DNA from: Xestospongia bergquistia
Lineage: Eukaryota; Porifera; Demospongiae; Haplosclerida; Petrosiidae
Length of the DNA stretch: 64,000 bases
Direction of reading: 5' to 3'
Assembly (NCBI GenBank): GCA_963965975.1
Contig: OZ014416.1
Span: 6,076,001-6,140,000 of the forward strand
Shown piece after piece: positions 3,965 to 56,340 of this stretch. Under the pieces are notes generated by a model. That model worked only from the letters and a program-made list of their open reading frames with translations. It ran no database searches and was not told the origin of the DNA. A program made the translations under genes and the position numbers. The number at the start of each line of letters is the position of its first letter. Position 1 is the first letter of the stretch.

Positions 3965-5292
3965 CTAATCAAAAAAACACCCAAAGTATTGAAGTCTACA
4001 ATCATTAAAAGTGACAAATTCTTCTGCTATTTCTTCCAAGTTTATCTTATCTTTGCAATTTTTGTGAGTATGTAAAATGATGACATGGTTCAAACGCTCT
4101 TGTGACATATTTGGATGTAAGTAGTTCTTCAGTCTTCTTAAGGTCAAAAATGTACGCTCAGCTGAAGCGGAAGCCATGGGAATAGTTAAATATAGGCAAA
4201 GAAGTTTATAAATTTCTGAAAACATTGCCTTTCGAATTGATGTAGTGTTCGTTAATTCACATATGGTGCTGATAACAGTCACCTCTTTGACTGTAATTGA
4301 ACTGTCCCTATTCACACCTTTTACCAGTTCTGGTAGCATTGAAAGCTGTGGCATCAATCTCTCAAAATCTACATCCCCTTTGTACATGTCATTTGATGAT
4401 TTTGTAAGAATGCCATTGCGCGCAAGACGGTATTAAAATATTTTCTATCTCATTAAGAATCCTCAAGCCCTTCTGTTCAAACCGTCGTGAAATTTCATTG
4501 CTGTTATATCTATGGCCTCATAATACAAATGGCGAAAGAATTCTCGTGGTGTTTTTGGATGGAAACCATCGGATTCTCCCATCTTTTTAGATGGTTGTCA
4601 CTTGCATGGGAGTTTTGGTTCTTTTGTTAAGTCTTGTGATGCAGCAACAATGGCATCATAAAAAGAATTGAATTCAAATGCTTGTACATGTAGTTTCATC
4701 AATAGAAATAAATTGCCTTGATTGTCATGCCCTCTAACAGCCAGCCCTTGTCGCATCAAAAAACGAAGAGAAGTTGTATTAAAAGCATTTTTCTTCTTAA
4801 TTCCTGATCTTTCTTCAAACATGAAATAGTTAAAGTCATAATACTTGGCCGTTGTAGTGACTCATACTTAAAAATGGCTTCATGATGAGTTTGGCTTGCT
4901 TCATGTTCTCGAAACTTTTCTTTTGCCTTCTTCCAATTACAAAATTCTTTTGTAATGAAAGAAGAATCACTGCGTTTATTGAAAGTTACTCCTCCCAATG
5001 AATTAATCTTCTGGCAATAAAAGCAATACACAACATTGCGTTTTAATTTAAGCAATATGAAAGCCATTTGTGCTCAGAAAACCACTTACTTTGAAAATAC
5101 ACGATGCTGTTTACCTTGCTTCCTCTTATTTGACCCAATACTCTTGTTAGTCAGAGATTGTAAATGGGCATTTCTATCAGTGTCACAACATTCAAGGTCA
5201 CTAACACTAGAATTAGCTACTGGTTGGTCTTCCGTCCCTGTCACAGTACTAGCACTGTCATTATTAAGCATTTCTTGGTTTTCCTCATTCAT
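3965..5292 (-). pseudogene. Decayed hAT transposase (TTF zinc finger / HAT dimerisation)
   Basis: Minus-strand fragments in the right order for a ZMYM/TTF-type hAT transposase. A Ser/Asp-rich N-terminal piece (5292-5086) is followed by a TTF-type zinc-finger piece around 5067-4800 (VVYCFYC, FCNWKKA, EHEASQTHHEA), a fragment at 4822-4598, a short piece near 4590-4440 (PREFFRHLYYEAID), and the C-terminal HAT dimerisation segment at 4387-3965 with the hallmark ASAERTFLTLRRLKNYL. The pieces are in different frames with stops between them, and most of the catalytic core is missing, so the element is dead. It sits between the two copies of the gene 1 terminal exons. No clear terminal inverted repeats were found by eye. 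Confidence 0.8.
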
Positions 5293-11800: not shown

Positions 11801-14800
11801 AATTTCTTTGCCTGTAAACAGGGCTAGCATTACATTACATGTCATTAAGTGTGGTTTATAAATGTACGAAGATCACATATAGAGTACATTAAATCATTCA
11901 ATGTCTGTTTTGTTATTCAAGAAAAGGTAATGTTAACAAAAATAATGATTGCATGGCATGACATAGCTAGTTTGTTGTGATAATGCCTTATATTTTAGCT
12001 ACTGTTTTCAGTTTATATCAAGTGTACTATAGATGTAGTCACAATAATTATTAGATTTGGCAAGATAATATAATTATTATAATAATTATTACTGTTATTA
12101 TAAATTTTCCAATTTTCTTCTAGTATCAACGAAAACCAGCACATTTTGCAGCAGAGAAGGGTCATGTTGATGCTATAAAGTTACTAATCGAAGTGGGACA
12201 AGCTGATGTAAATGCTAGAGATGAAGTAAGTCACATTACAGCTACTTATGAATTATTTCCATTTAAGTATGACATTTTAATGTGGTATTAAAAATTGATA
12301 CCAAACTGTTTCATGCTCAGGATGCCATTACTTCAAATATTTTGATAACAATGTTTTGACACAACAATTCTGAGAACAATTACCCAAAATCTTTAACAGT
12401 TAGAAAAGAACCAAAACCCCATTTAAATAACAACAAGGCTACAATAGGAACAGATTAATTATGTCAGTGACTATCACTCATAGATCTGTTTACTTGAGAT
12501 AAAATTTGTGCATAAACTAAAAACAACGTCATTGTTAAGTTATTAATAATAATGATTAAATTAAATTCATTATTTGGATATAATACTTGGGAATATGGCA
12601 GTTGTCATCATGCCATAACAAATACATCAAGATAATTTTTATATAAAAAAGGAAACACTCTCAAAAGTCTTTTATTCATCATTTTAATGAAATAATGCTT
12701 TCTTCAGTTCATATTTAGTAAATACAATAATAATTGTTAGACTTATACTCCTTCTCCTGAGAGGCTACTTCTAAGCTCTGTTAAATCACTACTTTCACAG
12801 TGGAACTGATCCAAACTACAATAGATGTTACTCATGTAAAAACATAATGATTTTGTGTAAAATTAATCATTGCAAACCTTCTAGTTTTATAGTTATCATG
12901 GTTCAAACAAAATTATAAAATAAGAAAGAACATTGTGTTATATCTAAATAGATAGTGCTATTGACCACATGATTGTTGCTCTTAAAACACAACAGTTATG
13001 TAAAATAAACATGTGATGCTAAACAATCCTAGGACCACCTGTTGATATGCAACATGCCAGATAATTAAAGCAAACTAGCCATAAAAGCAAGATATTTCCT
13101 CTTATTAAAACACATGACAACACTAGTAGTCAATAGAAGTATGACTAATTAAAACAACATTATCTTTCAGTCATTATTGTAACTGTTATATTATTATCAA
13201 TGATAAGGAAATAGATACAGCTAATTTGTGTTATTAATATTTTCAGTTTTAATGTCTTAATATCTTTCTTACTATCTTATTAAGAATCTTTTATCCATGA
13301 GATATTAATAATGACATTATTATAAAATATAATATTATAGCAAATTATTTTGCTCCATGTTCTCTTCTAGACCTATGTGTTATGTGTTTACTTCTTTCTT
13401 TAGGATGGCAATACTCTATTGCATTCTGCCTGCTCATGTGGTAGTAAGGACACAATACAATATCTGCTAAATGATGTGAAGTTAAATCCACTGGCTGTAA
13501 ACAATCGTCAACAAATACCATTAGAAGTTATTCCACCAAATCTCAATGACAGATTCCAATTACTAAAATTGTTTCAACCATTTCTTCAACATAATATAGA
13601 GTATCCAGTAGATTCATATGCCAAACTATTCCTTTGCGGAAAAACAAATACTGGTAAAAGCTCTTTAGCTGCTGTTATATCTTATCGTGCTGACAAGTGG
13701 TCTTTTCATGACTACAATCCAGAAGAATGTGTTGAAGGTGTTGTATTACAAAACACTGGAATTGACTACCACAGCATTCGTAGTTGGGAAATAGGAAACG
13801 TTGTAATTTTTGATTTTGCTGGACATGCAGAATATTACAGTAGCCATGCTGCAGTATTGGAAACTCTTTTGTTGAGGTCACCAGCTGTCTTTGTAATTGT
13901 AACTAATCTTACTGATGAGAAAGAGATAATAAAGAGGGACCTGTACTTCTGGTTTAATTTTATTGAGAATGTTAGCACGAATTTAAGTAACCCTAGTCAA
14001 GTTATCATTGTTGGAAGCCATATTGATCTTTTGCCACATGAAAATGATTACGAATCCTTTATTAATGAAATTGCAAGTAGTGCCATTCGTGATCAAAATT
14101 ATACTGGTTTCCTAGCAATGGACTGCCATAGACCAGGAGGTAAAGGTGTTAAAGAATTTATGACTAAACTAAAGAAGAGCTGTGAAGCTGTTATTGACAG
14201 AGAAGATAAAATAAGCTACCATTGTCATTGTCTACATGCTTTCCTTCAACAGCTTCAACTTGTTGCTATTAGTTTAGATGACCTCTGCTCAATAATTGAG
14301 AATATGAATGAGTCATGTCTTTTGTCAGACCGATCAACTGTGTTGAAGTTCTTGACCATTCTTGGAGAAAAGGGTCTTGTCTTACTTTTAGGAGATTGGT
14401 TAATTATCGACAAAAAAGCTATGTTAACTGAAGTAAATGGTATTCTTTTTAATAAACGCATTGATAGTGTATGTAAACCCATTACCAGTAACACTGGTAT
14501 CATGCCAGTGTCCACATTAGCTAAACTATTCCCCAACCACAATACAAAAATACTAATTCGTTTCCTAATAAGTCTACAATTATGTCACCAAATCAATTCT
14601 CTTTCCGTTAATAACATCGCAAACAATATACCATCTGAAGAACCTCCTGTAAATGAAGATGCCAAATATTTATTTTTTCCTGCACTTATTAAAGAAGATA
14701 GGCCCTCACCAGTTTTCACTACAACAGATGGATTTGGTTGGTGTTTATGGTGCCCAGATCCTCGGCAATTTCTACCTATACGATTCCTTCATACTCTACT

Positions 14801-16101
14801 TCGTCACTTGGCCTATACTCGTTGTCTTCCTTCTAACAACGCTGGCATTATGGAAACCCACATTGAAGTCGAGGAACTCTATCGTGATTGTACTATGTGG
14901 AAAAATGGCATATATTGGAAAGACGAGAATGATATTTAAGTGATGGTGGAGGTTACTGAGCACAATAGATGTGTTACAATTCTAGTTTCTCACAGTGGTT
15001 TCTTGAAAAGTTATGAGATTCGTACATCTCTCATTAAAGAAGTGCTTAGTCTTAAGAACAAGATATGTTCATGTGAAGTGCAGCAGTTTGTTATTCCTCC
15101 TTGTAATATGAACGATGTTGTTGACAAGGAGATGAGACACCGTATACTCTATTCCCTTAGAAAAGTAGCCCTTGGAGTTATTACCAAATGTCCTATTGGT
15201 GATGCAAACAATAAAACTGCTAAAAGAGTTGATGTCAGGTCTGTTGTTGGTGAGAAAGAACCTTACCTCTGCATTGCCCCCATTGTCATTGCGGCTCTCT
15301 TCACAGACAGCAACAACGACATACTATTACCACATCACTACATCCGACATATAGAGGAAGCATGTAGGAAGATAATGCCATTCTCATCTCATTGGACACA
15401 TCTGTCAGTGAGGAAACGTCTTAATCAATTTAGTATTTTTACTGGCCGTAATCCTTTGGTAAGTTAAGAATTTAATAATTTTTAATTGTTTGAATTTTGT
15501 ACATAGACTATATCATCTCGACCTATTAGAGAGGAAGAGATACAATGTCTGTCTATAGATGATGTTTATATTACAAAGAAAGGTAGTTTATCATGTCTGT
15601 TTTGATTAACATTTACTTATTAATGTTTGTAGAATCTAGTACCACTAACTCTCATCAACAGATGCAATCATCAAGTGCATATGATATATCAGGTATGCTT
15701 GTCAAATTCATTTTGTTGGTAAGTAATGTTCCAGTGTAATAAGGTGTTAATATTAGAGATATGTAATAGGTTTACTTTGGACACTACCTCAAGCTTATAT
15801 ACTATAATTATAAAGAATACTATACACTGGAATGTATTAACTGATATTTTGACCATTTATGTCCAAATTTATTCAAAGTTTAGTTTAGCTTTTTTTACTT
15901 TAGTTACTAGCAATAATAAAAGATATTTGTGATTATTTTATATTTTATGAGATTCCCTTTAAATCCTATAGAACCTGCTAAGGAATCAGGTACTGCTACT
16001 ACAACTGAAGGATATAATACTGACAATCTACTTCTGGAACATCAGGTATGATTATCTTCCTATTATGTAAGTCATGTTAATTTTGGTCATTTACAAATTC
16101 A

Positions 16102-17846: not shown

Positions 17847-20082
17847 AATATAAGGGATACCTGGCAATGGAATCAGAAGGTAATTAAGAGAGAGCTGTGA
17901 AGCTGCTGTGGACAGGAATGATAAGATGAGCTATGCTTTTCTACAAAATCTTCAGGTTGTCGCCATTAGCTTAGATGATTTCTGTTCATTATTAAAGGAA
18001 AGAAACGAACCCTACCTTTTGTCTGATAGATCTTGTTTGAAGGAGTTCTTAACTATCCTTGGAGACAAAGGTCTCATTTTGTACCTAGGTGAGTGGTTAA
18101 TTGTTGACAAGAAAGCCCTGTTGACTGTAATAAATTAATGCTCTATTCAATGAGAGTATCAATCATATTCAAAAACCTGTTGCCAGTAATACTGGGATAA
18201 TGCCTGTATATACCCTAGCTACACTTTCTCCAACTACTTTTGATATGTTAGTCCATTTTTAACTAGTTGACAGTTCTGTCACTAAATGGACATGCATGCT
18301 GTCAATACTATCATTAACAATGTAGCACCTGAAGAATTATCTATAGAGATTTTTTATTTTTCCTGCTCTTATAGATGAAAAGAGGACTCCTTCAGTGCTT
18401 AGTATGAAGCATGGATTGGGTTGGTGCTTGTGGTGTCCTATCTTCATCAATTCTGTCTCCAAGATTTTTACACATCCTTCTCTTTCATATAGCTTACAAA
18501 TATTGTCTTCTTCATAATAAAGCTGGCTATGTAAACACCTGTCCAGCAATTCAAGAGTTACAATGTGACTGTACTATGTGGAAAATGGGATACTATGGAA
18601 AGATGAGAACAATACCGAGGTGATGGTGGAAGTCTCTGAAGACAACAGACATGTTACATACTTGTGTCTGACAATGATTCAATACAAACTTGTCAAGTGC
18701 ATACATCTTTTGTTAAAGATGTCCTTAATCTTGAGAATGAATTATGTTCATGCAAAGCTAAGCAGTTTGTTATTTCTCGTGGAAATATTAAGAATGTGAT
18801 TGATAAGAAATTAGAAATTAGACATTGCATTCTTTATGCTCTGGGAGAAATAGCACGAGGTGTTATACTTAGGTGTCATGTTTGTGATAACAATAGACTC
18901 TTCTTACCTGAAGCTCTTGATGTAAGGCTATCGTTAGTAAAAATAAGCCATTCTTATGCATTGAGTACCCAGGTGACCATTGCTCTTTTTGATGGCAATA
19001 ACAGAGACTTATGTGGAAAATTTAAGCAGTTTAAATAAAGTAGATTGTATTCTACCTGCAAACATAGATATTAGCTATAATATTACCAAATAATTTTCAT
19101 TATTATAAGTGGGAGCCCACAAACTTAAACAAATGGGGAACTACATGGTACAGCATGAAGCAAGAACAACCAGACAAGGAACAATTAAAATACATTCATA
19201 ACATAATTGCCAACCTCCAAGTATACTAATGTTGTTTTTCTAATGCTATACCAGCTTTCTAGTAGGAGTCACATGATTGTTTGACTGTTCATTACTACTC
19301 TGTCACAAATGTTTGCGTAGCTTTTATTGTTATTTAATTTTATGTTACAGGTAATCAACACTTAAAGAGATTATACATCATATATCATTAATTTAGTAAA
19401 ATTATGTAAATTAATAGAGCAATTCTTGACAGTTGTTTAATTTAATTTCCCTTAAGTTGTCAAATCTACAAGACATGAAGTTTTAATTCAACTAGCATGT
19501 ATGGATGCTACATGGCATGAAATTGGAGATGGCCTTGGAATGAGTTATAATATAATTCGAGGTTTGGCTCAACCTGCATTCAAAAATCAAACACGACTTG
19601 GTTGGAAATGAATGGTGAAGGTGAAGGTGCTCCTATCACATGGATCACCATTTTAAAACTTCTAAATGATCACTTGTTAACAACAAAGCCCTAGCTATGA
19701 AGATATACCAAGAAGAATGTTCTAAAGAACAAATAGTTCCGAGTAAAATTTAATATACAATTGACTCATGAGGTTCACTTTATATCCTATAGAACCATCT
19801 AAGAAATCAGGTACTGCTAATACAATTGAAGGATATAATACTGACAACCTACCTATGGAATATGATTTATCTTCTTATGTTGTAGGTCATGTTAATGTTG
19901 GTCAATCACAAATTCAGTTCTTTTACAACATAATATAAACAATGTTTACATCATCAATGCATAAACAAACATAAACACTATTTATCACATATACTTATAT
20001 TCAACTAAACAGCAACAATCTTCACAAGAACTTTCAATTGAGCCACCAGAAGAGACTATAGCTAGTGATAGTACACATCAAG
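17847..20082 (+). pseudogene. Decayed third ROCO copy (COR-like region, Death domain, linkers)
   Basis: From 17847 the sequence parallels gene 2 from about 14100 on, but in several frames: 17908-18138 (LQVVAISLDDFCSLL), 18411-18623, 18578-18799 and 18664-19038, with stops and indels between them. At 18614 it has GAG GTG where gene 2 has TAA GTG, which exposes the gene 2 stop. A Death-domain exon remnant follows at about 19457-19720 (TWHEIGDGLG, then a frameshift after RLGWK). Linker-exon remnants lie at 19793-19860 (donor destroyed) and 20013-20082 (intact donor), homologous to gene 2 exons 15972 and 16234. The CARD exon expected next is missing. This copy carries both a Death domain and gene 2-type linkers, which shows that the domains are exchanged between family members. 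Confidence 0.8.
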
Positions 20083-29266: not shown

Positions 29267-30850
29267 TTAAGGGTAGTGTCGAGTAGTGTTGGTGGCACAA
29301 TCATCTGAATTAACTGTCTCAGATTCACTACATGACCGATTAGGACCAGTATTCTGATCTAACTGAGATTGAGGTTCTGGAAAGGTAACATGACTAGGAT
29401 ATTCCCAGGTGTCATCAAGTTCAGCACTTTGACCTTTAGTCAGTAACTGGTCCACATGACATTTCCAAAATGATCCCATATTCAATTTCAAAGATAAACG
29501 TAACATAACCCTTCTTCTCCACTATTTTGCCACTAATCCATGAGGGGTCGACATCACAATAACTACGAACCATGACTTGCTGCTCTACTTCAACTTGCCT
29601 GAACTATGTATGAGTGTCATGATTACTCTTCTGTAGACCTTGTTGGTTACGAACTTTAGTTTCTGTATTAGGTTTTAGTAAGTCCAGTACAGTTCTTAAA
29701 GGTCTTTTTAGCATTAGTTCAAAGGAGGTTTGCCAGTTGTTTAGTGTGGAGTTGCATGGTAAAACAGGAGAAAATTCGAGAGTGTATACTGACTAGTGTG
29801 ACCTTCTTTCTTTCCTTTCTTAAGAGAATTTTTTAGACTTTCGATCAGTCTCTCTACAGCACCATTTGTCGACGGTTGATATGGGGCTGACTTGAAATGT
29901 TTAATGCTGTTGCTATGAAGAAAAATAGCAAACTCATTAGAGGTAAACTGCGGGCCATTATCAGACACCAGCTGTTCAGGTAGGACAAAAACAGAGAAAA
30001 TGTGTCTTAGAGCTTCATTTGTTGCCGTAGCAGATGTAGATGATACTTCCCAGATCTCTGGCCATTTGGAGTAACTATCAACTACAAGCAAATATGTCTT
30101 AACCGAACAGTGGTCCAGCAAAATCAACATGCACACGTTGCCATGGCTGGCTTGGCCAAGACCAAGGGTGTAATGGTGAACGAGATGGAGCATGTCAAAC
30201 AAATAAACATGCATCACAAGATTTAGCTTACTTTTCAATTTCTTTATCAATTGAGGGCCACCACACAAATCCTCTAGCTACTAGTTTCATCTTATTCATA
30301 CTCATATGGCTGATATGCAATTCATCAAGAACTCGAGCTCTAAGTTTCTTGGGTACAACTACACGAATTCCCCACATGACACAATTAGACTCTATTGTTA
30401 GCTCATTTGACCGGTGGTAGTATGGTTTGAGGTCTTCCGAAATATCGGCTGGCCATCCATATATATCTTGTATAATGTAGAACTTTATTTATAATAGGAT
30501 CAATACGAGTGACAGTCTGCAGCTCAGTACACATAACAGGTAAGGTACCGATTTGAGCAAGACTAAACATTCCTGATGCTCCTTCACTTAAGGAAGACTC
30601 ATCTTCAGTAACTGATAATGGAAGGTGAGATAGCCCATCAGCATTTCAATAAGTAATAGTAGATCTGAAAATAATGTTGTGATGATAGGTTGACAAAAGT
30701 ACAGCCCATCTCTGTAGTCGAGCAGCAGTGAGAGAAGATATACCGTTATGAGATCCAAATATGGTAGTCAGTGGTTTGTGGTCAGTAATTAAGGTAAATT
30801 CCCTACCATACAAATATTGATTAAATTTCTGTGGTATGGTCATTTAGGTG
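29267..30850 (-). pseudogene. Decayed Ty3/Gypsy retrotransposon pol fragment
   Basis: Read on the minus strand: an RNase H piece (30843-30646, with the TLITDHKPL motif), then an interrupted zinc-binding region (about 30290-30190), then the integrase core within 30268-29741. The integrase still shows the Asp-Asp-Glu signature contexts LVVDSYSKWPE, VSDNGPQF and GAVERLIESLK. The post-integrase segment (29506-29267) has the usual WK-HVDQLL. Stops and frame changes separate the pieces. The reverse transcriptase, gag and LTRs were not found, so this is an old 3' pol remnant. Confidence 0.8.
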
Positions 30851-32405: not shown

Positions 32406-33638
32406 ACAGTGAGATTGTGTATATAGGGATTTTGCAAAATCCCTGAAACTTTCAGGGAGTTGGTGAAATTACTTTTTCACTTAGGGACTTCATAAATTCA
32501 CTAAAAACTCTAGTGATTTCGTGAAATCACTGAAATGAGGTTCCAGTTATTTCGCAAAATCACTGAATGTGATATATTCGTAGAAAATTCATCATTGTTT
32601 AAGTGTTGTAAGGAACTTTATTCATAAATGATTACAATCATAAAATTACAATGTGAAACACACTTCGATTATTTTTAATATATGTAATTCTTTATTACAC
32701 ATTTTCATACACAATCACCACAATGAGACATCTTTGATGAAAATTAAACAGTAATTCGGCTAACTCTTATTTTGACAACTGAGACTGCTGTGACACCTGC
32801 TGTTACAAAGTCTCTTTGCTTTATGACACTTGCACCTGCTTGTCTGACACTGTTTCTTGCGTTTGGTGCAGTCACACCGGATGAACCCTTGTCCGCCAGA
32901 AACTGTAGACTTGAGAGCTTGACGAAGTGTGATGGTACATTCTGTGTTGACATCAGAATCATTCAAAAGTCGCTGCGGACAGAGATCAAACTGATTCCTG
33001 GAATAGTTTGTGCTCAGAATCCCAGCTTTCACCTCAATTTTGCACAAGATGTTTCAGCATCCTGTCACAACCACTGTGCAATGTGAGCTATGATTTGCTA
33101 TGGTATCCTATTTGTCTTCTATGTTGTCATAGTAGACGGGGCGATCTTCTGGTGACTTTCTCTTCTTGATAAGCTTCTCCACATCACCACAATGAAGTAC
33201 TTCATACTTTTTAGGATGTAGTATTGGTAGTACTAGTGGAAACTTCAGCTGCTGTTTTCAGATTGTCAATGGTCTTGTAGTACACCTCTTTAGGAAAGAG
33301 ATATTTTGCACATTGAGAATATTTCTTAAACAAAGCCTCTTCGAATTTTGTCTCAAAATTATGCTGCATCATTTTGTTTCAAATGCAGAAATGAAGTAAA
33401 TGATCATGGTGTAGCTGCATGCCTCTTATATAGTGACAGCTGAGCTAAATTGCAATTACAACACATTAAAGGAGCTGTGAACTGCTCTGAACTATGATAA
33501 AACCTCAGAGTATATACTCATCAAAGCTATGGTATTATTTCCAGTAATTTCATGAAATCGCTAGAGTTTTTAGTGAATTTTTGAAGTCCCTATGTGAAAC
33601 TCCCTGAAAGTGTCAGGGATTTTGCAAAATCCCCAATC
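32406..33638 (-). mobile_element. Deleted KRBA2-like transposon with long terminal inverted repeats
   Basis: Left end CAGTGAGATTG (32408) and right end CAATCTTACTG (ending about 33636) open inverted repeats of roughly 110-130 bp, which include gggattttgcaaaatccctg and ttcactaaaaactctag. TA flanks both ends. On the minus strand, 33372-33211 starts MMQHNFETKFEEALFKKY and, after a frameshift, continues KKYEVLHCGDVEKLIKKR. Then most of the integrase is missing and 33047-32760 encodes the Cys-rich tail (GGQGFIRCDC, KKQCQTSRCKCHKA, LCNSRCH). N- and C-terminal parts match what I know of KRBA2-like/Ginger integrases, so this is an internal-deletion derivative. A second copy, truncated at its left end, lies at 37887-38846 inside the tandem duplication. 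Confidence 0.7.
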
Positions 33639-33646
33639 TTACTGTA

Positions 33647-33647
<1 letters not shown>

Positions 33648-33694
<47 letters not shown>
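33648..33694. repeat. AT microsatellite beside the transposon end, copy A
   Basis: Pure AT run immediately outside the right terminal repeat. Its copy in unit B is at 38856-38902 and has the same length. A second short run at 37258-37281 (copy 42466-42489) is also unchanged. Confidence 0.85.
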
Positions 33695-33698
<4 letters not shown>

Positions 33699-33907
33699 GG
33701 TCAACCAAATGCTAAACAATAGTTAACACATATAATGTAATATAAACTGGTAAAGAAGTAAACAACAGAGAAAATGAAAGAAATATACCTACGTTATTAT
33801 CAATATACATGTATACATGTATTATATTTATCTGCAATCAAGACATGTGCCTCAGAATATCATTCTATTAGTCATTATACATGTTGTATTAGTGCTATGA
33901 ATAACTG

Positions 33908-34575
33908 TTAGTGGTTTCTGTCATGATCTAAACAAACAAAACAATAATGTATGAATTGTATGAAATTATATCAAGTACCAATGCATTTAAAGCAAGGGTA
34001 CGTACATTTATTCATAAAATAATATATAATTGTGGTATAGCCATTACTATACATACTTGCAAGAGTATTGCGAATCTTATTAGCTATTGATTTCTCCTTT
34101 AGAGGTCCCTCTAAAACACTGATTATGTTATGCCATGTCACTGCAGTTGGTGCATTATCCAACCAACTCTGTAATATCTTGGACATCTTAACTTGGTTAG
34201 ATAAGTTTGAAGTATGTAATCCCTCAATAATATCAGAATCTACTCCAAGTAGATCACCAATCTCATGCCACTTAGCACTGACAGAAGTAAGTAATGTCAA
34301 TAATGTATGTTTTTCTGGTTTAGTAGCTAAAATGAATATTACAAATAATAAATATTACATATTTTATCTATACTATTATATATTCATACCTTCAAGTAAT
34401 AGTAAATCAACTTCATTGGCAGTAACTATATAATTTACAAAAAATAATAAACACACACACACACAGACACACACACACACACAGACACACACACAGACAC
34501 ATACACAAACACACACAGACACACAGACACACACACAGACACAGACACAGACACACAGACACAGACACACACACA

Positions 34576-34614
<39 letters not shown>

Positions 34615-37600
34615 GTTACAAAGTTAATGTTAATAACCAGTTCTATTATAATATATTAATTATAAATCTATACATAGAGCAAACTCACTTTTTTCATTAA
34701 ACCACAGTTGTTCTTGAGGTAATAGGTATGCTGTAAGGCTTCGCTTATGACTACAAGTTGTATATTTAGGAGAATTATTATTATTACATATAGCAGGATG
34801 ATCTTCTATAGAACTGTTCTTATGTCCCTTACAATAAAAGCCAAAGAAATGTTCTGCAGTAGCTGTGTAGTTAAGCCGATTCTTCACATAACTTAGACAA
34901 CAAGAAATATAATGTTTGACAGAGACATAAACATTTTCATCACTAATTGTGCTAAAGCCACGAGGAGATTTCACAACAATCTCAAGAAACCTAAAAAAAT
35001 TGGTGATAGTGACAATATGTCCTGACTTAACAAGATTAAATTCAATTTGATCTCTGAAGATTTCTTCTGACGAGAGTTCCCACTTGTCTTTACCATCAAG
35101 AAGAATTTTAGCAATGAGTGAACTAAAGATACCTCTTGGAGTGTAGTGACATTTGAATGTAATAAGAAGGGAGGTTATGTAACCATCATTTTGTGATAAT
35201 GGAGTAGATGGAAGAGAAGCATGTACTAAAACACAAGGGAGAAAATACTCCTGTTCATTAGACTCATTTATACCTACAGGAGCAATGATAACAAGATGTT
35301 CTAGAACAGCTATTACTTGTTCTACTGATAATAAGGTTTCTTTAACAACTTTACACTGCTCTAAATGATACTTTGTAAAACGGCCTGATAAACGAAACCT
35401 GTCATGTTCACTTTTCCTATGAATACGTTTGCCAAAGGAAAATGTATTCACAATAATGTCTGTTACAATATCAAAGAGTACCTGAGGGTCAGTAATAACT
35501 ACATCCTTCAGTTCAGGTATGATATTAAAATATCTTATTGTTCCTACTTTATTGTGAAGGAACCAGAGTGCTGCATGGAATTCATCTCCAAGAGAAATGT
35601 TACAGTTAAGAGCAAGATCTTGACAGTCTTTCAGAGACATAACCTTTTTTTCCAATTTTCGAATACAAAAGTCTAGTGCTAGCCATGGCACAGGAATCTT
35701 TACTTGATAATCACCATTTAAAGCAACATCAATAACCATACTTTTAACTAATTTTATATCATTTGAATTGAATGAGTTAATTCCAAGAAGAACCATACCA
35801 CTTTCAGTTGGTATAACCATATCTTGTGAGTACCAGTCAGTGCCTTTAAGCTCATCTTCTAATTGATCGTTGATCTGCAAAATTTTATCTTCAGTTTCTC
35901 CTTTTAATAAAAGCTCATCTTTGTGTGTGCCAATGATTATTACTTTTGAAATGGGCAATTCCAGACTTTCTTTAAAAAAGTGCGTAATTTTCTCAGAAAG
36001 TAACTTTACAATTGACTCAATTTTAGTTGTGCTCGGTTTAAAGTACTTTCCAATCGAGCTAATACTAGCAAGACATTGTAGAAGAGCTTCTTTAACTGTG
36101 AAACTACTCTCATATGGAACAGATACATTACCATCACTGGTTTTATAAGTGACTTTGTATCGATTGTCAAGACCTCCAGTAAGGTTAAATACAAAGATGA
36201 ACAAGGTAGAGTGTGACACTAGTGCAGGAAGCACCTCATGAAATTCTGGTTGTCCTCCACAATCTCTGAAATAGATATTAAAATTTTGATCCAATTCAGG
36301 TTGGATTTTTTGTATATCATTCCTTTCAAGAGATTCTCTAGCTACAGTCTCTGCACTAATGCCTTTGGTTGACTTAATTTGTGAACACTGACCTTTTAGC
36401 CCCAAAAAAAATCCAAATAAGATACCTAATAGGCTACCTACTAAAAAAAGCATAAATGCTAATGATCTTAAAAATTGTATGTTGTCGTTGTCTTCACTGA
36501 TCAACATTCTTTCTTGCATATAAATATCAGCTAGAGGTGCTACAACAATAATTATGTACATGATCATAACTAACACAGAAAGAGGCATTATTATATCATC
36601 ACTATCTATCACATCCTTTGATGATAACCCTTTTAAACGCGCAATAAATTCTTCATCTGGTGTGAGAGATTTCCAAGTGTAATTATCTACTGTAAATGTA
36701 GAATATGATTGCTTATTGTCATTTAATGTAACTTCAATTTTCATTACACTCTCACAAACTGGAGTACTAGGGGGACGATGTTTAACTGCTCTTACTGATT
36801 GTCTTTTCTTCTTTTTGAATTTGCATTTTGAATTAGTAAGTAGTTGTTCTTTAAGTGTGGTTTTACCAACAGTAGGTGGACCAACAGTCATACATTGAAT
36901 AATATTTACTTTTAATGATCCTTTTTTTTTTAATTGCGTTTTGTAGATGTTAAACAAATCGTGTTCATTCTTTGATTCTATACAAGGAAAGTAAAACAAA
37001 GTAATGAACAATTGTTAATTGACTAACTGATCATTAAGTAAGGTTTTCAGACATAGAAAGCTAGCTGTGCTAAAATAATAGTATTAGCATCAGAAAATAG
37101 AATAAAGGGAAGAGGCTAGATTTAGTCTTTCTAAAGGGAATAATTTGTCACTTAAGTATTGTGAACAGTTTCTTTACTACTGTCTGGCATGAACACAATC
37201 AACTGAAATTTTACAATTAAAATCTAAAGTGATCATCTTGGGAGGTGTGACTTTAGTGTGTATATATATATATATATATATATTATTATTATTAAGTGGT
37301 TGTGTAGATTGAAGTTAGTTAACACATGTCAATACAATATCATATAATACACCTGTATTTGTAGTTATTTTCCACAGCTTTACTGTTGCATATTTAACTA
37401 ATTCACCAAAAAGTACTAATGGAATTTCCAAAATGAAAAGGCCAATCAGAGCAATAAGTATACCATATCGAATACCATTTCCACCAATTGGAAATCTTGA
37501 TAAAGTGATCAGCAGTATAAAACCCATTATGGCAAAGAGCAGTGCACCACCTATACACAAATTCCTAACAGATGTTCTATTGCAGACTCCAACAACAATT

Positions 37601-37779
37601 GATATAAACAGGATCAAAGAAATTGAGGAGAAGATAAGAGAACAAATAGCGCCAAAGCTACTTAAGTAGCTAGTAATATTAGGAACAACTACCACAGGAC
37701 TTGGTACATAGTTTGGCGCAAACAATGAGACAAAATATATACAGAGCAATAATATTGCACGCTTCATCAAATCTTCCAT
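33908..37779 (-). CDS. Transmembrane P-loop GTPase with Death domain, copy A
   Basis: Five exons on the minus strand: 37779-37353, 36977-34689, 34425-34390, 34326-34057 and 33927-33908 (stop TAA). All phases fit, giving 1,013 residues. Residues 1-142: Met start, hydrophobic segment 5-21 (signal or TM), then TM segments near 43-63, 72-93 and 103-125. P-loop GPPTVGKT about 175-182; basic stretch KKKKR; two TM helices about 272-294 and 313-336; switch II DCGGQPEFHE about 381; GTHKDE about 494, in the place of NKxD. A COR-like region follows. The 270-nt exon (about residues 918-1007) is a Death domain (KWHEIGDLLGV, VTWHNIISVL), the same length and phase as in gene 1. The donor at 37353 (GTGTAT) is weak. 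Inference: membrane-bound GTPase switch signalling through Death-domain partners. Family assignment to ROCO-like GTPases is moderate. Confidence 0.78.
34450..34612. repeat. AC-rich microsatellite (ACACAGAC variants), copy A
   Basis: About 160 bp of CA repeats with regular CAGACA variants in the intron between exons 34689 and 34425 of the GTPase gene. The copy at 39658-39820 is identical in length and variant pattern. Confidence 0.9.
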
Positions 37780-38854
37780 TTTGATGACACACCTACATCA
37801 TGTTATGTATGAATATTAATATTATTACTTAATTAAATTCAATGATAATCTTATTGAAGATAAACATCAAATGTTTTGAATACTTTTATATGTAATTCTT
37901 TATTACACATTTTCATACACAATCACCACAATGAGACATCTTTGATGAAAATTAAACAGTAATTCGGCTAACTCTTATTTTGACAACTGAGACTGCTGTG
38001 ACACCTGCTGTTACAAAGTCTCTTTGCTTTATGACACTTGCACCTGCTTGTCTGACACTGTTTCTTGCGTTTGGTGCAGTCACACCGGATGAACCCTTGT
38101 CCGCCAGAAACTGTAGACTTGAGAGCTTGACGAAGTGTGATGGTACATTCTGTGTTGACATCAGAATCATTCAAAAGTCGCTGCGGACAGAGATCAAACT
38201 GATTCCTGGAATAGTTTGTGCTCAGAATCCCAGCTTTCACCTCAATTTTGCACAAGATGTTTCAGCATCCTGTCACAACCACTGTGCAATGTGAGCTATG
38301 ATTTGCTATGGTATCCTATTTGTCTTCTATGTTGTCATAGTAGACGGGGCGATCTTCTGGTGACTTTCTCTTCTTGATAAGCTTCTCCACATCACCACAA
38401 TGAAGTACTTCATACTTTTTAGGATGTAGTATTGGTAGTACTAGTGGAAACTTCAGCTGCTGTTTTCAGATTGTCAATGGTCTTGTAGTACACCTCTTTA
38501 GGAAAGAGATATTTTGCACATTGAGAATATTTCTTAAACAAAGCCTCTTCGAATTTTGTCTCAAAATTATGCTGCATCATTTTGTTTCAAATGCAGAAAT
38601 GAAGTAAATGATCATGGTGTAGCTGCATGCCTCTTATATAGTGACAGCTGAGCTAAATTGCAATTACAACACATTAAAGGAGCTGTGAACTGCTCTGAAC
38701 TATGATAAAACCTCAGAGTATATACTCATCAAAGCTATGGTATTATTTCCAGTAATTTCATGAAATCGCTAGAGTTTTTAGTGAATTTTTGAAGTCCCTA
38801 TGTGAAACTCCCTGAAAGTGTCAGGGATTTTGCAAAATCCCCAATCTTACTGTA

Positions 38855-38906
<52 letters not shown>

Positions 38907-39115
38907 GGTCAACCAAATGCTAAACAATAGTTAACACATATAATGTAATATAAACTGGTAAAGAAGTAAACAACAGAGAAAATGAAAGAAATATACCTAC
39001 GTTATTATCAATATACATGTATACATGTATTATATTTATCTGCAATCAAGACATGTGCCTCAGAATATCATTCTATTAGTCATTATACATGTTGTATTAG
39101 TGCTATGAATAACTG

Positions 39116-39783
39116 TTAGTGGTTTCTGTCATGATCTAAACAAACAAAACAATAATGTATGAATTGTATGAAATTATATCAAGTACCAATGCATTTAAAG
39201 CAAGGGTACGTACATTTATTCATAAAATAATATATAATTGTGGTATAGCCATTACTATACATACTTGCAAGAGTATTGCGAATCTTATTAGCTATTGATT
39301 TCTCCTTTAGAGGTCCCTCTAAAACACTGATTATGTTATGCCATGTCACTGCAGTTGGTGCATTATCCAACCAACTCTGTAATATCTTGGACATCTTAAC
39401 TTGGTTAGATAAGTTTGAAGTATGTAATCCCTCAATAATATCAGAATCTACTCCAAGTAGATCACCAATCTCATGCCACTTAGCACTGACAGAAGTAAGT
39501 AATGTCAATAATGTATGTTTTTCTGGTTTAGTAGCTAAAATGAATATTACAAATAATAAATATTACATATTTTATCTATACTATTATATATTCATACCTT
39601 CAAGTAATAGTAAATCAACTTCATTGGCAGTAACTATATAATTTACAAAAAATAATAAACACACACACACACAGACACACACACACACACAGACACACAC
39701 ACAGACACATACACAAACACACACAGACACACAGACACACACACAGACACAGACACAGACACACAGACACAGACACACACACA

Positions 39784-39822
<39 letters not shown>

Positions 39823-42800
39823 GTTACAAAGTTAATGTTAATAACCAGTTCTATTATAATATATTAATTATAAATCTATACATAGAGCAAACTCACTTTT
39901 TTCATTAAACCACAGTTGTTCTTGAGGTAATAGGTATGCTGTAAGGCTTCGCTTATGACTACAAGTTGTATATTTAGGAGAATTATTATTATTACATATA
40001 GCAGGATGATCTTCTATAGAACTGTTCTTATGTCCCTTACAATAAAAGCCAAAGAAATGTTCTGCAGTAGCTGTGTAGTTAAGCCGATTCTTCACATAAC
40101 TTAGACAACAAGAAATATAATGTTTGACAGAGACATAAACATTTTCATCACTAATTGTGCTAAAGCCACGAGGAGATTTCACAACAATCTCAAGAAACCT
40201 AAAAAAATTGGTGATAGTGACAATATGTCCTGACTTAACAAGATTAAATTCAATTTGATCTCTGAAGATTTCTTCTGACGAGAGTTCCCACTTGTCTTTA
40301 CCATCAAGAAGAATTTTAGCAATGAGTGAACTAAAGATACCTCTTGGAGTGTAGTGACATTTGAATGTAATAAGAAGGGAGGTTATGTAACCATCATTTT
40401 GTGATAATGGAGTAGATGGAAGAGAAGCATGTACTAAAACACAAGGGAGAAAATACTCCTGTTCATTAGACTCATTTATACCTACAGGAGCAATGATAAC
40501 AAGATGTTCTAGAACAGCTATTACTTGTTCTACTGATAATAAGGTTTCTTTAACAACTTTACACTGCTCTAAATGATACTTTGTAAAACGGCCTGATAAA
40601 CGAAACCTGTCATGTTCACTTTTCCTATGAATACGTTTGCCAAAGGAAAATGTATTCACAATAATGTCTGTTACAATATCAAAGAGTACCTGAGGGTCAG
40701 TAATAACTACATCCTTCAGTTCAGGTATGATATTAAAATATCTTATTGTTCCTACTTTATTGTGAAGGAACCAGAGTGCTGCATGGAATTCATCTCCAAG
40801 AGAAATGTTACAGTTAAGAGCAAGATCTTGACAGTCTTTCAGAGACATAACCTTTTTTTCCAATTTTCGAATACAAAAGTCTAGTGCTAGCCATGGCACA
40901 GGAATCTTTACTTGATAATCACCATTTAAAGCAACATCAATAACCATACTTTTAACTAATTTTATATCATTTGAATTGAATGAGTTAATTCCAAGAAGAA
41001 CCATACCACTTTCAGTTGGTATAACCATATCTTGTGAGTACCAGTCAGTGCCTTTAAGCTCATCTTCTAATTGATCGTTGATCTGCAAAATTTTATCTTC
41101 AGTTTCTCCTTTTAATAAAAGCTCATCTTTGTGTGTGCCAATGATTATTACTTTTGAAATGGGCAATTCCAGACTTTCTTTAAAAAAGTGCGTAATTTTC
41201 TCAGAAAGTAACTTTACAATTGACTCAATTTTAGTTGTGCTCGGTTTAAAGTACTTTCCAATCGAGCTAATACTAGCAAGACATTGTAGAAGAGCTTCTT
41301 TAACTGTGAAACTACTCTCATATGGAACAGATACATTACCATCACTGGTTTTATAAGTGACTTTGTATCGATTGTCAAGACCTCCAGTAAGGTTAAATAC
41401 AAAGATGAACAAGGTAGAGTGTGACACTAGTGCAGGAAGCACCTCATGAAATTCTGGTTGTCCTCCACAATCTCTGAAATAGATATTAAAATTTTGATCC
41501 AATTCAGGTTGGATTTTTTGTATATCATTCCTTTCAAGAGATTCTCTAGCTACAGTCTCTGCACTAATGCCTTTGGTTGACTTAATTTGTGAACACTGAC
41601 CTTTTAGCCCCAAAAAAAATCCAAATAAGATACCTAATAGGCTACCTACTAAAAAAAGCATAAATGCTAATGATCTTAAAAATTGTATGTTGTCGTTGTC
41701 TTCACTGATCAACATTCTTTCTTGCATATAAATATCAGCTAGAGGTGCTACAACAATAATTATGTACATGATCATAACTAACACAGAAAGAGGCATTATT
41801 ATATCATCACTATCTATCACATCCTTTGATGATAACCCTTTTAAACGCGCAATAAATTCTTCATCTGGTGTGAGAGATTTCCAAGTGTAATTATCTACTG
41901 TAAATGTAGAATATGATTGCTTATTGTCATTTAATGTAACTTCAATTTTCATTACACTCTCACAAACTGGAGTACTAGGGGGACGATGTTTAACTGCTCT
42001 TACTGATTGTCTTTTCTTCTTTTTGAATTTGCATTTTGAATTAGTAAGTAGTTGTTCTTTAAGTGTGGTTTTACCAACAGTAGGTGGACCAACAGTCATA
42101 CATTGAATAATATTTACTTTTAATGATCCTTTTTTTTTTAATTGCGTTTTGTAGATGTTAAACAAATCGTGTTCATTCTTTGATTCTATACAAGGAAAGT
42201 AAAACAAAGTAATGAACAATTGTTAATTGACTAACTGATCATTAAGTAAGGTTTTCAGACATAGAAAGCTAGCTGTGCTAAAATAATAGTATTAGCATCA
42301 GAAAATAGAATAAAGGGAAGAGGCTAGATTTAGTCTTTCTAAAGGGAATAATTTGTCACTTAAGTATTGTGAACAGTTTCTTTACTACTGTCTGGCATGA
42401 ACACAATCAACTGAAATTTTACAATTAAAATCTAAAGTGATCATCTTGGGAGGTGTGACTTTAGTGTGTATATATATATATATATATATATTATTATTAT
42501 TAAGTGGTTGTGTAGATTGAAGTTAGTTAACACATGTCAATACAATATCATATAATACACCTGTATTTGTAGTTATTTTCCACAGCTTTACTGTTGCATA
42601 TTTAACTAATTCACCAAAAAGTACTAATGGAATTTCCAAAATGAAAAGGCCAATCAGAGCAATAAGTATACCATATCGAATACCATTTCCACCAATTGGA
42701 AATCTTGATAAAGTGATCAGCAGTATAAAACCCATTATGGCAAAGAGCAGTGCACCACCTATACACAAATTCCTAACAGATGTTCTATTGCAGACTCCAA

Positions 42801-42987
42801 CAACAATTGATATAAACAGGATCAAAGAAATTGAGGAGAAGATAAGAGAACAAATAGCGCCAAAGCTACTTAAGTAGCTAGTAATATTAGGAACAACTAC
42901 CACAGGACTTGGTACATAGTTTGGCGCAAACAATGAGACAAAATATATACAGAGCAATAATATTGCACGCTTCATCAAATCTTCCAT
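39116..42987 (-). CDS. Transmembrane P-loop GTPase with Death domain, copy B
   Basis: Same five-exon gene as copy A: 42987-42561, 42185-39897, 39633-39598, 39534-39265 and 39135-39116. The predicted protein is identical to copy A. Copy B keeps the original upstream sequence (beyond 43098). Copy A has only about 110 bp of shared 5' flank before running into the 3' end of unit B, so if both are real, copy B is the one more likely to have the native promoter. Confidence 0.78.
39658..39820. repeat. AC-rich microsatellite, copy B
   Basis: Identical partner of the array at 34450-34612. Confidence 0.9.
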
Positions 42988-43098
42988 TTTGATGACACAC
43001 CTACATCATGTTATGTATGAATATTAATATTATTACTTAATTAAATTCAATGATAATCTTATTGAAGATAAACGTCAAATGTTTTGAATACTTTTATA

Positions 43099-55194: not shown

Positions 55195-56340
55195 TTTTTG
55201 GATAGGTGGACTTCCTATTACTTCTAAAATGGTATTCCAAGTAACAGATTTAGTCATTCTCTCCTTCCAAAGTTATAGTATTTGGAAAGTTTGACATCAT
55301 CATGCTGGTCAGAACTATTCAAAGAGTCAAAGTCTCAACTTTAGATTCCAAGGCGAACATCAATAGCGTACCACCTGTTATTAATCTTAGACATTAGCTT
55401 TAGGAGGTCACTATACTCGGGAGCTTTTTCTAATGAATTAAAAATGATCAAAAAGAAAAGCATAAGAACATAACAGAGTCTATATGAATGCATTTAGTCT
55501 ATCATAAGATTCAATTAAATTGATTATCTGTCCTCACATATAAAGATGTATAGGCTCATATAATAAAGATGTGTATTAGGTTTAATATAGTACTGTAACA
55601 TACCAAAGAGTTTTGCCCAGTAAAAAAGCTACAGTCATTGAGAGAACTGGAAATATCACCTCAGAATAGGTACTAACTTTGGATGTATTATAAGGTGACA
55701 TTATACTGCTGGGAGCAAGTTCTTGAATGTGTTTAAGAAATCCATTTGGAATGACAACGTTGGCTTTACTATTGGAGAATAAGACATGGATGACTAATAG
55801 TGCAAGGGAGATGTATGGCTCATGTGGACAAATGTGTTTGACATTGCCTTGAACTCCATTATGGTCAAGGATTTCTTCATTACCTATTATTCCTTGAGCC
55901 ACAGCACTTAATGGATAGAGTTTATGGACAAACTGCTTTTGAAAAGAAAAAAAACAGTTTAATAACAGAGGAAAATATTTTTTGACTTTCAAACCATTTA
56001 CATTCGAAACAAATACAGTGACACATCTATTATCATCTACATCATTGCTTAGTTTCCAATACCATTCTTTCAGATTGTACAATAATGATTCAACTGCTCT
56101 ATATAAGACTCTGCATGCGTTTAATTCATCAGCTATAGGGTTACAAATAGGACAATAATCATAATATGCTAATCAAAGCCAAAAAATGTGAAGAAAGCGA
56201 ACAGAGAGGAATTGAAATGGACTAGGACAACACAAGCACCAACCAAATTCACTTTTAAAAGTGCTGGAAAGGAAAGAATGTCAACATTAGAAACGTGATA
56301 TGACGAAGAGAGGTTGGTAATAATAGCATTAAGTGTCTCT
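55195..56340 (-). pseudogene. Decayed ROCO-Death copy on the minus strand
   Basis: From about 56330 the minus strand reads the C-terminal ROCO region in several frames: FPALLKSEFGWCL near 56250, then the long open stretch 56082-55604 (NLKEWYWKLSNDVDDNRCVT, AQGIIGNEEIL, HEPYISLALLVIHVLFS). It ends FFTGQNSL in another frame before a GTATGT donor at 55603, matching the first 43 bases of the window. A Death-domain exon remnant at about 55432-55195 matches gene 1 exon 402-671 (SDLLKLMSKINNRWYAI, VTWNTILEVI) but has stops and frameshifts and is cut off at the foldback element. This is the closest relative of gene 1 in the window, inverted. Confidence 0.78.

Follow-up and report, generated by a model that had tools for sequence, protein, structure and literature searches.

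Proteins of the ROCO family, such as CtRoco, LRRK1/2, DAPK1 and MFHAS1, have a Roc G domain followed by a COR domain, and the same order is predicted for the product of a gene from the demosponge Xestospongia bergquistia that lies within a 64,000-nucleotide stretch of contig OZ014416.1 (GenBank assembly GCA_963965975.1, positions 6,076,001 to 6,140,000 of the forward strand), here called the window. Unlike the described ROCO proteins, the product of this hairpin gene has a predicted membrane hairpin in the interswitch of its G domain and a hydrophobic N-terminal exon, and no leucine-rich repeat or kinase was found in it. The G-alpha subunits have a soluble helical domain inserted before switch I, whereas the insert in the window protein is hydrophobic and follows switch I. 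ARMS/Kidins220 and PifA belong to the KAP NTPases, ATPase-type proteins of another P-loop class in which membrane segments are inserted between the Walker A and Walker B motifs; the window protein has an analogous predicted placement, and the KAP NTPases are the nearest precedent for a membrane insert within a P-loop domain. The window protein is unlike them in having G3 and G4 motifs, a COR domain and an insert of two helices, compared with the four transmembrane segments described between Walker A and Walker B of ARMS/Kidins220 in the accessible part of PMC10707181, and a Pfam scan of it returned no KAP family match at E ≤ 1. The DAPK1 group of ROCO proteins, according to the accessible part of PMC6337361, has a Death domain and also a kinase before Roc. 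A C-terminal Death domain is likewise present in the window protein; no kinase match before Roc was obtained in the three frames scanned, and in the gene model Roc is preceded by hydrophobic exon 1 alone. SR-beta and Arl10, as described in the accessible part of PMC8358228, have an N-terminal transmembrane helix outside the G domain, and are similar in that a Ras-like domain is held by a transmembrane helix, whereas the hairpin of the window protein lies inside the G domain. The word "transmembrane" is absent from the main text of the ROCO review PMC6337361, and the accessible part of a paper on brown-algal ROCO proteins (PMC11378527) mentions no such membrane insert. An earlier note on this DNA knew of no described ROCO or small GTPase with a membrane hairpin at this point, and no GTPase with one was found in the open-access literature among the matches listed; the idea of membrane segments at the corresponding place in a P-loop protein is less new, given ARMS/Kidins220.

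The best reading of the locus, and in our judgment a probable one, is that it encodes a ROCO-Death receptor that is integral to a membrane and whose interswitch is tethered there. Its components differ in strength: as predicted from sequence and structure models, it is highly probable that the Roc domain is interrupted in its interswitch turn by a hydrophobic helical hairpin, true membrane insertion of that hairpin is very likely, and a coupling of the hairpin to nucleotide state is conceivable at somewhat less than an even chance. The order of parts is N-terminal hydrophobic segments, P-loop, switch I and strand 2, hairpin, strand 3 with switch II, G4, COR and Death domain (Table 1), with 206 residues separating P-loop from switch II. 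The spliced product of exons 1 to 4 has 1007 residues; of the 1,013 residues originally modeled, the last six depend on a weak possible exon whose addition gives that length.

Table 1. Features of the hairpin gene and its duplicate (window coordinates; residue numbers refer to the predicted protein)
Feature	Position	Strand	Remarks
Whole gene	34057-37779	minus	four exons, consistent phase-1 introns
Exon 1, N-terminal hydrophobic segment	37353-37779	minus	homologous exon in two other loci, 92% and 71% identity
Exon 2, split Roc G domain with predicted membrane hairpin, then COR	34689-36977	minus	
Exon 3	34390-34425	minus	36 bases
Exon 4, Death domain	34057-34326	minus	
Possible last exon	33908-33927	minus	6 residues and stop; weak: splice phase and pyrimidine tract only
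P-loop GPPTVGKT (G1)	36859-36882	minus	residue 175
Hairpin helix 1 (predicted transmembrane segment 5, TM5)	36532-36594	minus	IIMPLSVLVMIMYIIIVVAPL, residues 271-291
Hairpin helix 2 (predicted TM6)	36397-36465	minus	SLAFMLFLVGSLLGILFGFFLGL, residues 314-336
Switch II DCGGQPEF (G3)	36241-36264	minus	residue 381
G4 motif GTHKDE	35914-35931	minus	residue 492
COR-A match	35353-35694	minus	Pfam profile, E value of 2.7e-6, under Pfam's own cut-off
Second, identical gene copy	39265-42987	minus	within perfect tandem duplication

The proposed identity as a GTPase with a COR-like region was borne out by family profiles and by fold. Pfam profiles matched the window protein to COR-A (E value of 2.8e-6), Roc (4.2e-4) and Death (0.0094), and the Roc profile was matched in 19 of 28 family members; both the profile in the family and the fold place the COR domain directly C-terminal to Roc. 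The G motifs GPPTVGKT, DCGGQPEF and GTHKDE are present, as is an invariant serine, S71 (PPST), which we read as switch I. The Roc match of the window protein, at 21 bits against a Pfam cut-off of 27, starts downstream of the hairpin. When 145 residues from strand 2 to strand 3 were deleted in silico, the Roc match spanned the P-loop (positions 3-88, 25.9 bits), compared with positions 31-88 and 22.9 bits for the undeleted protein in the same test, and shuffling the P-loop half abolished the match in both of two controls. An AlphaFold model made with paralogs has a Roc-COR fold, and its best PDB fold matches are CtRoco and LRRK2, with about 450 residues covered. The suggestion that the segments might belong to a buried core found no support in this model, where the stretch joining strand 2 to strand 3 forms a pair of long helices and the segments are not core strands; the hairpin position is thereby refined to the interswitch turn, after switch I and strand 2. 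A PDB sequence search with and without the insert gave no match, an NCBIfam search gave only weak GTPase matches, a search of viral contigs with the window protein gave none, and a plasmid search was likewise empty. The pattern DxGGQPxFxE was matched three times in genome contigs and three times in viral contigs, in frames of 13-246 residues from which the matches were judged unrelated.

Segment energies were computed on an approximate Hessa-type scale with our own code. The two membrane-type segments claimed between P-loop and switch II score -2.0 (residues 271-291) and -2.6 (314-336), and tests for an artefact of splicing or of AT-richness were negative. Four N-terminal segments had also been proposed; three hold up (48-66, -2.6; 75-93, -2.9; 107-125, -0.8), and the first (8-26) is marginal at +0.3. 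Among 2000 shuffles of the exon-2 protein, the best segment reached -2 or lower in 35 and the second -1.5 or lower in one. Thymine occupies the second codon position of the hairpin in 40 of 69 codons (58%), compared with 18 (26%) at the first and 24 (35%) at the third (p = 0.0004), an excess of the kind that encoding hydrophobic residues demands and that unspliced AT-rich DNA would not need. Chance hydrophobicity of AT-rich DNA was rejected on the strength of this codon-position bias, the shuffles and the neutral drift runs described below. Intron retention confined to the hairpin was likewise rejected, there being no consensus splice pair and the base composition being frame-specific: six GT dinucleotides lie downstream of strand 2 and ahead of the hairpin, and each agrees with the donor consensus at five of nine places at most, compared with seven to eight for the four donors of the gene model. 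The possibility that transcripts splice out the segments thus found no plausible intron in silico that would remove the hairpin alone. The donor-like sequence TCAGTAAGA at codon 74 of the open frame, upstream of switch I, could excise 408 in-frame bases, an event that would break the G domain because switch I would leave with the hairpin. In a control over 102 stop-free frames of at least 69 residues, two strong hydrophobic segments occurred in nine: four are exons 1 and 2 in both gene copies, four are frames of a CA microsatellite near 34.4-34.6 kb and its copy, and the ninth lies in a repeat at 22.2-22.7 kb. Frames of low complexity are therefore able to mimic the hairpin signal. The hairpin flanks are net positive and its loop net negative, from which the positive-inside rule would place P-loop and switch II both on the cytosolic side; the earlier proposal that the two motifs face the same side of the membrane fits these charges.

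Relatives were sought in 146,460,797 bases on 21 contigs of the same genome. The window protein gave 66 matches and a query from a distant paralog gave 70, many of them on further contigs, indicating that the family is large. On the window's own contig (C6) a close clade comprises loci L015-L030 and the two window copies, its larger matches being 58-94% identical, and the part order of the window protein recurs in whole or in part at the 16 further loci, which are close paralogs within this genome. At all 16, two or more hydrophobic segments were found in a frame upstream of the GTPase exon, a count made without a chance control, and in L022 and L027 that frame and the P-loop share one open frame. 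A homologous Death exon was detected in 10 of the 16 loci and in 4 of 19 distant loci, not counting one at L030 that belongs to the neighboring L017 gene. Distant paralogs lie on contigs C1, C2, C3, C4, C12, C13 and C15, and most align only from about switch II onward. We sampled 27 of them (L031-L057, eight of which were fetched from the second query's matches, and L043 having a stop inside the stretch). In all 27 the P-loop lies 150-275 residues from switch II, and the most hydrophobic 19-mer of the spacer scores 4.4 or worse. A long spacer therefore characterizes the family and is not peculiar to the hairpin gene, whose novelty lies in the hydrophobic hairpin alone. An alignment of 27 of 34 locus rows plus the window included 18 distant rows, which likewise have a G domain and COR but a polar spacer; the hydrophobic fraction at the hairpin site is 0.12-0.27 in these and 0.43-0.53 in the ten hairpin rows. 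In a 28-row tree of the region after switch II, in which the hairpin could not bias the grouping, a branch supported at 100/100 has the ten hairpin rows together on one side. The predicted membrane hairpin is an innovation of one clade, a tandem ROCO-Death family that, as far as found, is confined to one contig. On C3 and C15 the open frames that hold many of the distant paralogs are very long, up to 3,356 residues, and in L033 (C3, 2.08 Mb) a DKDGER motif repeats at multiples of 138 residues ahead of the GTPase.

Within this clade the predicted hairpin is conserved in kind, and an exon with two to four predicted hydrophobic helices lies ahead of Roc. In sequence the C6 hairpins diverge strikingly, being 12-19% identical to that of the window in 14 rows and 80-85% identical in the two closest copies, short frames being left out of the alignment. 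With 6 short or partial rows left out of segment scoring, 10 of 17 rows have both hairpin segments at 0.5 or below; the number rises to 15 at a threshold of 2.5 and to 16 at 2.6, and the one remaining row is the broken locus L028. Setting aside the window and the two copies close to it leaves 7 of 14 rows at the 0.5 threshold and 12 of 14 at 2.5. The rows share ancestry (L018 does not differ from L019 here), and their counts are not independent tests. When the window hairpin was drifted neutrally to 20% identity without insertions or deletions, 3 of 300 runs kept both segments at 0.5 or below and 22 kept them at 2.5 or below. The ratio of nonsynonymous to synonymous substitution rates (dN/dS), taken over 12 overlapping and hence nonindependent locus pairs, was 0.65-2.04 for exon 1, 0.23-3.70 for the hairpin and 0.27-0.82 for the rest of exon 2; it exceeded that of the rest of exon 2 for exon 1 in every pair and for the hairpin in 11, and Fisher's test of hairpin plus exon 1 against the rest was significant in 8. 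The pair L024-L029 runs counter to this, with a hairpin value of 0.23. Several pairs had dN/dS above 1, none of the 12 beyond chance (p < 0.05), and we therefore limit the claim to faster evolution. The fast tempo common to exon 1 and hairpin fits, but does not prove, a single membrane bundle.

Several observations weigh against the receptor reading and bear on its rivals. All three Pfam scores of the window protein, for Roc, COR-A and Death, fall under the curated cut-offs, the 145-residue deletion raises the Roc score by just 3 bits, and deletions of 125 and 71 residues gave no match running through the P-loop (23.4 and 23.7 bits). The clade itself is uneven: the second helix is weaker in L022, L026 and L027 and the first is weak in L028, the P-loop lysine is lost in L017 (GET) and the P-loop reads GKK in L022, in-frame stops or frame breaks occur in L019, L023 and L027, and 6 of the 16 loci yielded no Death exon of their own. 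A misreading of a KAP-type ATPase as a GTPase could draw on the transmembrane segments of KAP proteins between Walker A and B (four in ARMS, in the accessible part of PMC10707181) and is scarcely credible, since the GTPase motifs, the Roc and COR profiles and the fold contradict it. It is improbable that the hydrophobic helices lie outside the membrane, either packed into a protein interface or missing from the mature mRNA. Confidence in the hairpin helices is modest (predicted local distance difference test, pLDDT, of about 45-68 in the shallow model with paralogs, and 39.7 overall in a poor single-sequence model that was not used); synonymous codon choice is atypical, at -0.12 bits per codon for the hairpin and -0.14 for the stretch immediately upstream, compared with +0.08 in the remainder of the exon, which was itself among the codon-choice training data; and sequence by itself leaves room for the longer in-frame excision that includes switch I. 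Opposed to these are the segment energies, the positive flanks and acidic loop, the want of a consensus splice pair for the hairpin alone, hydrophobicity kept while sequence diverges, and the upstream hydrophobic frames at all 16 other loci, subject to the missing chance control.

The chief rival, somewhat unlikely in our view, is that the hairpin is a passive second anchor in an already long and tolerant loop, which along with the N-terminal helices keeps the protein at the membrane and plays no part in nucleotide switching; its fast evolution would then reflect relaxed constraint, with hydrophobicity its sole requirement. The spacers of the distant paralogs accord with it: all 27 are long and without membrane-type segments, and the 18 that were aligned are polar and variable, so insertion at this site would cost the fold little. 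So does the failure of hairpin and exon 1 to exceed a dN/dS of 1 beyond chance in any of the 12 pairs. A passive anchor would, however, be redundant with the N-terminal helices, yet two segments scoring 2.6 or lower are retained in 16 of 17 rows, and the hairpin sits in the interswitch, the moving part of Arf-type switches.

On the receptor reading with a tethered interswitch, a single membrane would hold both anchors, and the G domain, COR and Death domain would be cytosolic. The interswitch of Arf-type switches shifts position between the GDP-bound and GTP-bound states; in the window protein a shift of this kind would work against a membrane anchor, and membrane and nucleotide state could be coupled in either direction. 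A membrane event, whether a partner, lipid, ligand or clustering, might be sensed by the fast-evolving helices and alter the interswitch, and hence the nucleotide state and Roc-COR dimerization (GTP binding being a prediction), after which the Death domain could be exposed or clustered and recruit death-fold adaptors. More tentatively, and as an unlikely extension, the transmembrane interswitch may be thrown directly by bilayer events, and these proteins may be rapidly diversifying immune or self-recognition receptors that trigger death-fold signaling; the N-terminal bundle and the hairpin, both variable, would then act together as a single sensor, with the conserved Roc-COR-Death part as executor.

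The unit that holds the hairpin gene (32679-37865) recurs at 37887-43073 with zero mismatches, microsatellites included, and this perfect 5,187-bp tandem duplication is either an extremely recent event or an assembly artefact. The duplicated unit also contains a cysteine-rich CXC-like frame (32760-33047, minus strand, with its copy at 37968-38255; E value of 0.09). An Ankyrin-Roc gene 20 kb from the hairpin gene (13404-15467, plus strand) matches LRRK2 Roc (E value of 2.6e-5), has 58 residues from P-loop to switch II and, in the two frames that were scored, shows no membrane segments; two or more distinct ROCO types are therefore present in the window. Six pattern matches to this gene in viral contigs were not confirmed. 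Death-like exons resembling that of the hairpin gene lie at 410-673 and 19462-19599 (plus) and 55281-55421 (minus), and pieces that we read as ROCO-like C termini, without a Pfam match, lie near them at 18640-19038 and 55582-56172; together we read these as a ROCO-Death cluster. A hAT transposase dimerization region (3965-4432) and a retroelement-type integrase core (29741-30277) are both on the minus strand.

A central question about LRRK2 and similar ROCO proteins, which reach membranes through partners, is how contact with the membrane is linked to the GTP switch. In the architecture predicted here the interswitch is continuous with a membrane hairpin. If this is correct, threading of a G domain through a membrane is possible, something that the KAP NTPases do for another P-loop class, and soluble paralogs within the same genome would be natural controls for the interswitch hairpin. 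It would also add a membrane-receptor type to the ROCO-Death proteins.
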